NCBI GenBank assembly: GCA_012728725.1
Contig: JAAYEM010000012.1
Span: 1 to 64,000, forward strand
Source: Tissierellia bacterium
GTDB taxonomy: Bacteria > Bacillota > Clostridia > Tissierellales > Tepidimicrobiaceae
DNA: 64,000 nt
Direction of reading: 5' to 3'
Shown here: in pieces, positions 1,677 to 40,668 of the stretch
How the letters are laid out: every line of letters begins with the position of its first letter
How positions within the stretch are numbered: position 1 is the first letter of the stretch
Position numbers and translations under genes: made by a program
Notes under the pieces: generated by a model
Seen by the model: only the letters and a program-made list of their open reading frames with translations
What the model was told of the DNA's origin: nothing
Database searches by the model: none

Positions 1677-1724
1677 AAAAGGCACCTATTCATATACTAA
1701 TTGGGTAGGTGCCTTTTATTTATG
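1677..1724 (+). terminator. Rho-independent terminator after trpB
   Basis: The arms AAAAGGCACCTA and TAGGTGCCTTTT (about 1677-1688 and 1706-1717) form a hairpin that ends in a T-rich stretch. Confidence 0.85.
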
Positions 1725-3524: not shown

Positions 3525-3546
3525 TCTAGGGAAGGGGATGAATATA

Positions 3547-4023
3547 ATGAAGGAAATAGTATTGGCTGGAGGGTGTTTCTGGGGAGTTGAGGAATATATG
3601 TCCAGGATTGAAGGGGTAGTGGATACAAAAGTAGGCTATGCCAATGGCCATACAGAAAATCCCACCTATGAAGAGGTGTGTACCGATACCACTGGCCATG
3701 CAGAGGCCTGCTATATTAAATTCGATGAAAATATATTGTCCTTAGAGGAACTCCTTAATAGGTTTTGGAGGATAATAGATCCCACCTTAAAGAATAGGCA
3801 GGGGCCAGATGTAGGTAGCCAATACAGGACGGGTATCTATTATATAGATGAAGATGACCTGCCAATTATAATGAAAACCTTTAAAGAGCAGCAAAAGAAA
3901 TATGAAAAGCCTATAGTTACGGAAATAGAACCCTTGAAAGTATTCTATGATGCAGAAGAATACCATCAGGATTATTTGAAGAAGAATCCAGGGGGATACT
4001 GCCATATAGATTTAGATGCTTAA
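3547..4023 (+). CDS. msrA: Peptide methionine-S-sulfoxide reductase
   Basis: MsrA reduces methionine-S-sulfoxide in proteins with a catalytic cysteine. The sequence shows the diagnostic [10 protein letters not shown] motif near the N-terminus, then RTGIYY and a [10 protein letters not shown] segment typical of the family. An ATG at 3538 is also in frame, but the AAGGGG site abuts it directly, whereas the ATG at 3547 has a normal spacing of 9. I therefore prefer 3547 (158 residues). There is no fused MsrB domain. A second methionine-sulfoxide repair enzyme, fRMsr, lies at 46120, so both protein-bound and free methionine sulfoxide appear covered. Confidence 0.95.
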
Positions 4024-28880: not shown

Positions 28881-29138
28881 ATGGACAATATAATAGTATT
28901 TGGAAGTAAGCTTTGCCCAGATTGTCAACCGGCAAGGGAATATCTTACAGAAAATAATATTGAATTCTTATATTTGGATATTACGGAAAACCTATTATAT
29001 CTAAAGAAATTCTTAAAATACAGGGATGAAAGAAAAGAGTTCCATGAGATAAAAAAAGCAGGTCAAATTGGCATCCCCTGTATAGTCATAAATGATGGAG
29101 AAAGGATTTTATTCGATTATAGGGAATTAGAAGTTTAA
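28881..29138 (+). CDS. Glutaredoxin-like protein, CPDC active site
   Basis: The 85-residue thioredoxin-fold protein has CPDC at residues 12-15 (FGSKLCPDCQPAREYL) and the cis-proline region GIPCIVIN near 64-71. It is about 60% identical by eye, without gaps, to the UGA-containing protein at 38647, whose first active-site position is a UGA. It is therefore the Cys paralogue and the natural comparison for that gene. Its start immediately follows the Nudix stop. Confidence 0.9.
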   Translation: MDNIIVFGSKLCPDCQPAREYLTENNIEFLYLDITENLLYLKKFLKYRDERKEFHEIKKAGQIGIPCIVINDGERILFDYRELEV

Positions 29139-37089: not shown

Positions 37090-38073
37090 CTACTCTATAA
37101 TATTGGTGGCTTCCTTAAATAGAGGGAGATTTTCATCTAATCCTAATGCCTTTAAGGTATTTTTATTAAGGGTAATTATGGTATTTTCTGCCAATCCAAC
37201 AGGTATAGATGAAACATCCTTTCCATCTACAAGTATTTCTTTAGCCATTTTTGCCGTTTGCTTTCCTAATTCATAGTAGCTAAGTCCACTTGAGATGAGT
37301 AGGCCACCCCTTACTTGAGTTTCTTCAGCTGATACTGTCACCATATTATTTTCAATTGCAACCCTTGATGTTAATTCCACAGAAGATGCTACCAAATTAT
37401 CTGTAATCATATACAAGGCATCTACCTTTTTTACTATAGATTGAAGGGCTTGTGGTAGTTCATTTACATTGCTCACCCCAAGGGTTACTACCTCTAACCC
37501 TACCTCTGGAGCCAATTCCTTTACTTCCTCTATTTGGATTTCAGAGTTTGGCTCACCAGTGTTGTATAGAATGCCTATGGTATTGATATTGGGATCAATC
37601 TGTTTAAACATCTTTAAATGGTCTTCAATGGGAGCTTTGTCTGAAGTTCCTGTTATATTTCCACCTACATTTTCCCAATCAGCTACTATTTCTGCCTTTA
37701 CCGGATCTGTTACTGCACTAAACAATACTGGAATATCTGTACCATCTGTTGCTTGTTTACAACTTTGGGCTGCTGGTGTTGCTATAGCAAATATTAGGTC
37801 TACCTCATCCTTAACAAATTTTTGAGCTATACTAAGACTAGTTGGGATATCTCCTTGAGCATTTTGATAATCGATTTCAGCTTTTATCCCTAATTCCTTT
37901 AGTCCATCTTCGAAACCTTTTCTGGTGTCATCTAGGGCAGGATGTTCTGCCAATTGGTTAATACCTATTCTAAATACCTTTTCCTCTGAAGTATTATTTA
38001 CTTGGTTATCCTTTGAACTACAGCCTGCTAAAATTAATATGCCTATCAAAATTAATGCTATTATTTTTTTCAT
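37090..38073 (-). CDS. ABC transporter substrate-binding lipoprotein, TrpX-like
   Basis: The 327-residue lipoprotein (lipobox LAGC; MKKIIALILIGIL signal) has the TrpX/ABC_sub_bind fold with GINQLAEHPALDDTRKGFEDG and QKFVKDEVDLIFAIATPAAQ. Such proteins bind aromatic amino acids such as tryptophan. The specifier of the leader argues for phenylalanine here. ATG follows AAGGAGGATGC. Confidence 0.88.
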   Translation of the reverse strand: MKKIIALILIGILILAGCSSKDNQVNNTSEEKVFRIGINQLAEHPALDDTRKGFEDGLKELGIKAEIDYQNAQGDIPTSLSIAQKFVKDEVDLIFAIATPAAQSCKQATDGTDIPVLFSAVTDPVKAEIVADWENVGGNITGTSDKAPIEDHLKMFKQIDPNINTIGILYNTGEPNSEIQIEEVKELAPEVGLEVVTLGVSNVNELPQALQSIVKKVDALYMITDNLVASSVELTSRVAIENNMVTVSAEETQVRGGLLISSGLSYYELGKQTAKMAKEILVDGKDVSSIPVGLAENTIITLNKNTLKALGLDENLPLFKEATNIIE

Positions 38074-38150: not shown

Positions 38151-38425
38151 AAAAAAAAATCTTTCGTTCCTATAAATATAGTTTTTTAAACTATACTTAT
38201 AGGGACGAAAGATTATTCCGCGGTACCACCCTATTTATGACATAAAGTCATCACTCATTTTCGGACCCAACAGTCCTAGCCCTTGTAACGATGGGCTTTC
38301 GGATTCGTCTACTTGAGTTTACTCGTTGAACGAACCAGCTCAGGAGTGAATATTACATATCCCCTTAATGTTGGCTCTCACCTTACCCAACTCTCTGTGA
38401 TTAAGGTAGGATATCTTTCTCTCCT
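38151..38425 (-). promoter_or_regulatory. T-box leader, probable Phe specifier, of the TrpXYZ-like operon
   Basis: The minus strand has AGAGAGTTGGG Stem I, the T-box AGGGTGGTACCGCGG (38218-38232) and a long terminator stem with arms AATCTTTCGTCCCTATAA and TTATAGGAACGAAAGATT followed by a run of T. The specifier, aligned with the Trp leader, is TTC (phenylalanine) at 38350-38348 followed by ACTCCTGAG. The three T-boxes in the window have the same form around the specifier, which supports the assignment. Confidence 0.88.
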
Positions 38426-38459
38426 TCAGCGCTTTTTTAAATTTTAATATTTAGATAAA

Positions 38460-38563: not shown

Positions 38564-38592
38564 TTGAAAATCCTTTATCTACATGGTATATT
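38564..38592 (+). promoter_or_regulatory. Promoter of the UGA-containing glutaredoxin gene
   Basis: TTGAAA (38564-38569) and TATATT (38587-38592) are 17 bp apart, about 55 bases before the ATG. The gene therefore appears to have its own promoter. Confidence 0.65.
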
Positions 38593-38646
38593 ATAGTTAT
38601 ATTCCATAATTAGAAAAAGGTTACAAAAGTTATAGGAGGAATTTAA

Positions 38647-38919
38647 ATGAAGGATATTATCGTATTTGGAAGCAAACATTGACCAGCCTGTAGGCCAGCG
38701 AAAGAGTATCTTTCTAAACATAATATAAGGTTTCTCTACTTGGATATTACAGAAAATATGATGAACTTAAAACTATTCTTAAAATATAGGGATAACTATC
38801 CCCAATTCGAAAAAATAAAGGAAGAGGGGAGGGTAGGGCTGCCCTGCATTGTTATAAATAAAGGAGAGGAAATTGTATTCGATTATAAACAGTTAGATAT
38901 TACTCAAATTAATAGATAG
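38647..38919 (+). CDS. Probable selenoprotein: glutaredoxin-like, UGA at the first active-site position
   Basis: The frame from ATG 38647 (after AGGAGG at 38634-38639) gives FGSKH-UGA-PACRPAKEYL and then runs unbroken for 78 codons to TAG at 38919. The UGA (38680-38682) replaces the first Cys of the CxxC motif, giving U-P-A-C. The paralogue at 28881 has CPDC there and is about 60% identical without gaps. UGA is a normal stop elsewhere in this window, for example trpB. Immediately downstream is a hairpin fitting the bacterial SECIS pattern. If selenocysteine is inserted, this is a 90-residue selenoenzyme with a Sec-Cys redox pair. A degraded pseudogene is the alternative, but no other lesion is seen. 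Confidence 0.85.
38700..38714 (+). promoter_or_regulatory. Candidate bacterial SECIS hairpin
   Basis: GAAAGA (38700-38705) pairs perfectly with TCTTTC (38709-38714), leaving a GUA loop with G first. The loop lies 23 nt after the UGA, within the roughly 16-37 nt known for bacterial SECIS elements. This is a sequence match to the family rule, not a tested structure. Confidence 0.65.
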
Positions 38920-39015: not shown

Positions 39016-40668
39016 ATGAAGGAAACGGTATATATTATAGGACACAAAAATCCTGATTCAGATTCCATATGCTCAGCTATAGCCTATGCAGAATACAAGA
39101 ATGCCAGTGGGGATATCAATGCAATTCCTGCAAGACTAGGGGAAATTAACAGGGAAACAAAATTTATCCTGGATTATTTTGGGGTAGAGACCCCTATGCT
39201 CTTAGAAACTGTAAGGCTTAGTGTGGAAGATTTAAATTTTGACAAAATAGCCCCGATTAGCCCTGAAATATCACTACGAATGGCCTTGGAAATAATGAAG
39301 AAGAATAATTTAAATAGTCTTCCCGTTGTAGATGAAAACGAACAATTAATGGGTATTGTAACCGTATCTGATATAATAGGTTCCTATATAGATGTGTGGG
39401 ATAACAATGTATTGGGCAGTTCGGGAACTTCTATAGATAATATAATAGATACCCTCACCGCTAAAATAATCACCTTGCCAAACAATGCCAGATTCTTTAA
39501 TGGAAAAATTTTAGTATTAGCTATGGAGCCTAAATCTATTAAAGAATATATAGAAGCCAATGATATAGTCATATGTGGTGATAGGAGAGATGCCCAGGAG
39601 CTTGCTATAAACAGCAATATATCTTTAATGATAGTAACTGGCAATGTAAAAATAGATCAACAGATTATTGAGCTTGCTGAGGAAAAGGGGGTTGCCATTT
39701 TATCTACCCCTTATGATACCTTTACAGCTGCTAAATTAATCACCCAGTCCATACCCATAAAGGATGTAATGACCAAGGAAAATTTAGTTACCTTTAGGCT
39801 AGACGATTTAGTGGATAATGTGAAAGAAGCAATGTCCAAAACCAGGTATAGGTCCTATCCAGTAATAGATAGCAGTAATAATAAAGTAGTGGGTTTAATA
39901 TCCAGATACCATTTAATTTCCAGTATGAAGAAGAAGGTCATATTAGTGGATCACAATGAACGGAGCCAATCTGTTGATGGGCTAGAAGAATGCGAAATAC
40001 TGGAAATTATAGATCATCATAGGGTAGCAGATGTGTTTACGGGAAATCCAATATACTTTAGAAATGAGCCAGTAGGTAGCACAGCCACTATAATTGCTTC
40101 TATAATGTTTGAAAATGGCAGAAGGCCTTCGAGGAAAATTGCAGGCATATTGGCAGCGGCTATAATTTCCGATACCCTATTGTTTAGATCTCCCACCTCT
40201 ACTAATACGGATAGGATTATACTAGATAGGCTAGCCAGAATTGCAGATCTAGATGTGGAACAATTTGCTATGGAAATGTTTAAGGCTGGTACTTCCTTGG
40301 CTGGGAAAACTCCCCAAGAGCTATTAAAGGAAGATTTTAAGACCTTTAATATTGAGGAGGAAAAGGTGGGAATAGCCCAGGTATATACCATGGATCCAGA
40401 TAGCTTAGCAGATATGAAGCCTGATCTACTTTCCCTTATGGAGGAAAGAAGAAATCAAGATGGATACTCCATGTTTATGTTGATGTTGACGGATATATTT
40501 AATGAGGCTTCTGAAATGGTAGTAGTAGGGGAGAAAAAGGAATTAGTTGCAAAAGCCTTTGGCAAAAACCTTGTCAATAATTCCTTCTATGCACCAGGGG
40601 TTCTATCTAGAAAGAAGCAGGTGGTACCACCCCTTACAAATATCCTTACATCTCAGGAAGAGATATAG
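39016..40668 (+). CDS. ppaC: Manganese-dependent inorganic pyrophosphatase with CBS and DRTGG domains
   Basis: This family II pyrophosphatase of 550 residues splits pyrophosphate using Mn2+. The N-terminal DHH motif is GHKNPDSDSICSAIAYAEYKN. A regulatory insert of about 250 residues follows (CBS, DRTGG-like, CBS: LNSLPVVDENEQLMGIV and RYRSYPVIDSSNNKVVG). The catalytic part resumes with IDHHRVAD and the C-terminal DHHA2 RKKQ region (SRKKQVVPPL). CBS-DRTGG versions of about this length occur in Clostridium and are inhibited by AMP/ADP. The RBS is AAGATGGAGG. Confidence 0.95.
   Translation: MKETVYIIGHKNPDSDSICSAIAYAEYKNASGDINAIPARLGEINRETKFILDYFGVETPMLLETVRLSVEDLNFDKIAPISPEISLRMALEIMKKNNLNSLPVVDENEQLMGIVTVSDIIGSYIDVWDNNVLGSSGTSIDNIIDTLTAKIITLPNNARFFNGKILVLAMEPKSIKEYIEANDIVICGDRRDAQELAINSNISLMIVTGNVKIDQQIIELAEEKGVAILSTPYDTFTAAKLITQSIPIKDVMTKENLVTFRLDDLVDNVKEAMSKTRYRSYPVIDSSNNKVVGLISRYHLISSMKKKVILVDHNERSQSVDGLEECEILEIIDHHRVADVFTGNPIYFRNEPVGSTATIIASIMFENGRRPSRKIAGILAAAIISDTLLFRSPTSTNTDRIILDRLARIADLDVEQFAMEMFKAGTSLAGKTPQELLKEDFKTFNIEEEKVGIAQVYTMDPDSLADMKPDLLSLMEERRNQDGYSMFMLMLTDIFNEASEMVVVGEKKELVAKAFGKNLVNNSFYAPGVLSRKKQVVPPLTNILTSQEEI

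Follow-up and report, generated by a model that had tools for sequence, protein, structure and literature searches.

The window, that is the whole stretch of DNA analysed here (64 kb), carries on its forward strand a short frame interrupted only once, by a TGA at codon 12, after which 78 sense codons follow up to a TAG. The following features lie at this locus and at that of a related gene about 10 kb away:

28881-29138, + strand: cysteine paralogue, a CPDC glutaredoxin without a SECIS-like hairpin, placed in a clade of its own
38564-38592, + strand: possible promoter, TTGAAA-17-TATATT, its second hexamer preceded by TG (consensus match only)
38634-38639, + strand: ribosome-binding site AGGAGG, 7 nt 5' of the ATG (read from sequence)
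38647-38919, + strand: predicted Sec-glutaredoxin coding sequence, 90 residues, U12-P-A-C15, stop codon TAG
38680-38682, + strand: in-frame UGA, predicted selenocysteine codon 12 (UGA/Cys exchange in 56 UGA and 14 Cys homologues)
38700-38714, + strand: SECIS-like hairpin GAAAGA-GUA-UCUUUC, apical-loop G at 38706
39016-40668, + strand: manganese-dependent inorganic diphosphatase, downstream neighbour

Scored with cysteine in place of U, the product reached 34.4 bits against PF00462 (cut-off 22.9). The UPAC motif at residues 12-15 matches the glutaredoxin active site, and GLP at 64-66 holds the presumed cis-proline. Across 27 homologues of both the Sec and the Cys type, position 12 (U or C), Cys15, Pro66, and Cys67 are invariant. 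Codon 67 (38845-38847) specifies a third cysteine beside the presumed cis-proline (GLPC), and this residue may be redox-active.

A sequence-only reading of this DNA had described the UGA at the first position of UPAC with 78 codons behind it, the AGGAGG site, a perfect hairpin 17 nt after the UGA, and a Cys version at 28881 with about 60% identity, all of which were recovered; the last shares 62% identity over 85 residues with the Sec-glutaredoxin, and its clade is well supported and includes Cys genes from two genomes of the same family. The same reading had called the promoter strong. The best site is a decent match (10 of 12 consensus positions), but a scan of the region found four promoter-like sites near the gene where 4.0 are expected by chance, and consequently no excess.

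The diphosphatase gene is the next gene after the Sec-glutaredoxin in eight genomes, the source genome included; its function is too remote from redox chemistry to point to a partner. On the opposite strand, a T-box leader (124 bits, 38198-38438) precedes an ABC transporter substrate-binding gene (37090-38073, - strand), which therefore probably belongs to an amino-acid-responsive transporter operon. Inspection of the 64-kb window for further hidden UGA genes gave no candidate with a recognisable conserved product.

UGA/cysteine exchange among homologues

The homologue search covered 249 genomes from the order of the source genome and 391 from its class, and the best matches, down to an E-value of about 1e-16, were read at the codon level. 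Position 12 was encoded by UGA in 56 different homologues and by a cysteine codon in 14, and no other residue or stop was found there among these sequences. The exchange has recurred: the best tree topology requires nine changes between Sec and Cys, of which at least five are forced by well-supported branches, their direction not being readable from the tree. SelA scored above its cut-off in 164 of the 249 order genomes, comprising all 41 genomes with a confirmed UGA form and 123 of the 208 others (Fisher P = 5e-9, uncorrected for kinship).

The hairpin downstream of the UGA codon

The hairpin consists of six perfect base pairs closing a 3-nt loop with G in first position. The window gene, when recoded at random with synonymous codons, rarely yields it (P about 0.0005). 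The complete set of six pairs plus the loop G, at the fixed distance, was present in 37 of 44 Sec genes and in none of the eight Cys genes, while Sec genes recoded with the same amino acids and the codon usage of the family gave a mean of 0.11 and a maximum of 2 in 2000 recodings. Codons 18-22 belong to those most strongly conserved at synonymous sites within the gene, with a value of 0.86 at Leu22 as compared to 0.20-0.65 at other leucines. Compensatory changes (AU to GC, AU to CG, and GC to AU) occur at several pairs, and the covariation score of 0.139 exceeds all shuffled alignments (0.076) and all slid versions of the hairpin (at most 0.087); as most hairpin columns are near-invariant, this covariation is carried by few lineages. 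When a covariance model was trained on other species, with the window sequence excluded, its best site in the 64 kb was precisely this hairpin (36.6 bits, E = 1e-8), followed by a site of 15.1 bits.

The folding energy of the isolated 45-nt stretch is not unusual (z = -0.94), and the case for the hairpin therefore rests on conservation rather than on energy. An Rfam scan of the region returned no SECIS family, only the T-box on the opposite strand and chance matches.

A few homologues of family f12 keep the UGA without the exact hairpin, and most of these have a different hairpin in its place, for example UUUCAAG-GAAAAA-CUUGAAA in more distant UGA genes. Distant homologues with UGA and a different downstream hairpin include L058-L061 (genomes G076, G072, G070, and G074); together with their close Cys sisters L078 and L079 from the same genera, they form a good set for the study of Sec/Cys switching. 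In addition, the Cys-type gene L042 (genome G001) retains most of the hairpin at 1693-1722 (- strand; 22.7 bits), perhaps as a remnant of a recent change from Sec to Cys.

Selenium machinery and the reading of UGA

In the source genome, selA, selB, and selD lie adjacent on one contig and score above their NCBIfam equivalog cut-offs. The same contig carries selC, the tRNA for selenocysteine, which was likewise found above cut-off (73.3 bits) and assigned the anticodon TCA by ARAGORN. Two further genes of this genome have in-frame UGA codons at known selenocysteine sites. SelD itself has one at its known Sec site SGUAAKIG (L067:1137-1139, - strand, contig C64), followed by the hairpin UGGCACAA-GUU-UUGUGCCA. 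A 2-Cys peroxiredoxin (L088:1111-1632, + strand, contig C20) has UGA at the peroxidatic site TFVUPTE, retains its resolving cysteine, and shows the 7-bp hairpin CUAUUCU-GGC-AGAAUAG 17 nt 3' of the UGA. One arrangement, a UGA with a downstream hairpin whose 3-nt loop begins with G, is therefore common to the Sec-glutaredoxin, SelD, and the peroxiredoxin.

The sequence-only reading had proposed a selenoprotein and had named beforehand two tests, the presence of selA, selB, selC, and selD and the state of position 12 in homologues. All four genes are present, position 12 shows a clean UGA/Cys exchange free of random stops, and selection on the hairpin is confined to Sec genes, all of which supports the proposal. 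The interval 38647-38919 is accordingly predicted, with a probability of about 0.96, to encode a selenoprotein whose UGA is read as selenocysteine by means of the hairpin.

The best surviving alternative adds to this prediction rather than opposing it: the UGA might act as a regulated stop, with synthesis of the protein restricted to times of ample selenium and the Cys paralogue at 28881 standing in for it during shortage. The presence of this paralogue in the same genome, only 10 kb away, fits such a scheme, and selenium-regulated Cys/Sec pairs are known from other organisms. However, many relatives possess the Sec copy alone and neither gene yielded a regulatory element, which leaves selenium-dependent substitution an unlikely addition. 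A second alternative holds that the UGA arose from a cysteine codon by nonsense mutation, leaving a pseudogene, or by a sequencing or assembly error. Although a single base change turns TGT or TGC into TGA and the draft genome is fragmented into 108 contigs, TGA stands at the same codon in dozens of other species, several of them with single-contig genomes, the frame behind it remains 60-75% identical across homologues, and the hairpin is kept at synonymous positions; the conservation of the UGA in independent genomes led to the rejection of this explanation, whose probability is negligible. Just as improbable is an altered code, in which the UGA would specify tryptophan or be passed by leaky read-through, selenium playing no part: TGA stops are indeed rare in the window (4 of the 50 genes counted, as against 24 TAG and 22 TAA), but the four genes in question gain only 3-17 codons on read-through, the exchange partner at position 12 is always Cys and never Trp, and selABCD are present, with SelA in every genome confirmed to have the UGA form. 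Elsewhere in the window, UGA is an ordinary stop codon, and this behavior together with the Cys exchange was the reason for rejecting an alternative code.

For the selenoprotein reading, known bacterial selenocysteine insertion suggests the following course. Ribosomes would arrive at the UGA of codon 12, where SelB carrying Sec-tRNA(Sec) would be bound by the hairpin 17 nt downstream; selenocysteine would then be inserted and termination avoided.

Predicted function and comparison with known glutaredoxins

The product would be a small thiol:disulfide oxidoreductase of the glutaredoxin fold, in which the selenolate of Sec12 may attack the substrate and Cys15 may resolve the intermediate. A search for glutamate-cysteine ligase, limited to the family PF04262, gave no match in the source genome, which is 92% complete. 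Use of glutathione by the Sec-glutaredoxin is doubtful, and because no PF04262 ligase was found, either the thioredoxin system (thioredoxin reductase and thioredoxin) or a small thiol is the probable, if speculative, electron donor. Genes for thioredoxin and thioredoxin reductase occur together on contig C43. A wider proposal can be made only tentatively, namely that the gene represents an uncatalogued glutaredoxin subfamily of anaerobic Clostridia (Tissierellales and beyond), mostly of the Sec type among the homologues read and probably independent of glutathione, in which the invariant Cys67 might take part in a U12-C15-C67 relay.

None of the NCBIfam models reached its cut-off with the window product. 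The best matches were two models with the glutaredoxin fold, the YruB family TIGR02196 (42.3 bits, below the cut-off of 88.55) and UXX-star family 1, NF041114 (25.2 bits, below the cut-off of 72). The UXX-star motif is UxxT (PMC13188914), in contrast to the UPAC (UxxC) of the window gene. As the sub-branch falls below every NCBIfam cut-off, automatic annotation may well miss this gene, and the entire sub-branch is perhaps absent from annotation. The gene illustrates cleanly how standard gene callers, by stopping at 11 residues, would miss a short selenoprotein. The gene call is useful for annotation, though a specialist is unlikely to be surprised by it. The repeated Sec/Cys exchange and the accompanying loss of the hairpin make the homologues a useful set for studying the gain and loss of selenocysteine.

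Glutaredoxins with a UxxC motif were predicted as selenoproteins with bacterial SECIS elements in Alkaliphilus metalliredigens, Moorella, and Geobacter (Zhang et al., 2006; PMC1794560), and the window gene resembles them in the UxxC motif, in the prediction as a selenoprotein, and in the SECIS-like hairpin. In a 2026 review, the PF00462 UxxC glutaredoxin figures among the known selenoprotein families, with a reference to experimental work (PMC13188914). Among the closest known proteins is cGrx1 of Clostridium (Alkaliphilus) oremlandii OhILAs, a small PF00462 selenoprotein glutaredoxin whose U(C)PxC motif begins with native Sec (PMC7642778; Kim et al., 2011, as cited in PMC13188914). A profile of 27 homologues matched solved glutaredoxin structures, and the cGrx1 entry 7c10 was the best PDB match (E = 1e-8), in an alignment that covers only residues 2-47 of the window product. 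The C-terminal half of the latter (FLKYRD...VGLPCIV), including the invariant Cys67, is not shared with cGrx1. In C. oremlandii, a Sec-containing MsrA is the proposed partner of cGrx1, whereas the MsrA gene of the window (3538-4023) has no in-frame UGA in the matched domain; the Sec-Grx/Sec-MsrA pairing is therefore not directly applicable here. Sec glutaredoxins being an already established family, the predicted product of the window gene joins it as a well-supported member, within a sub-branch for which no curated model exists.
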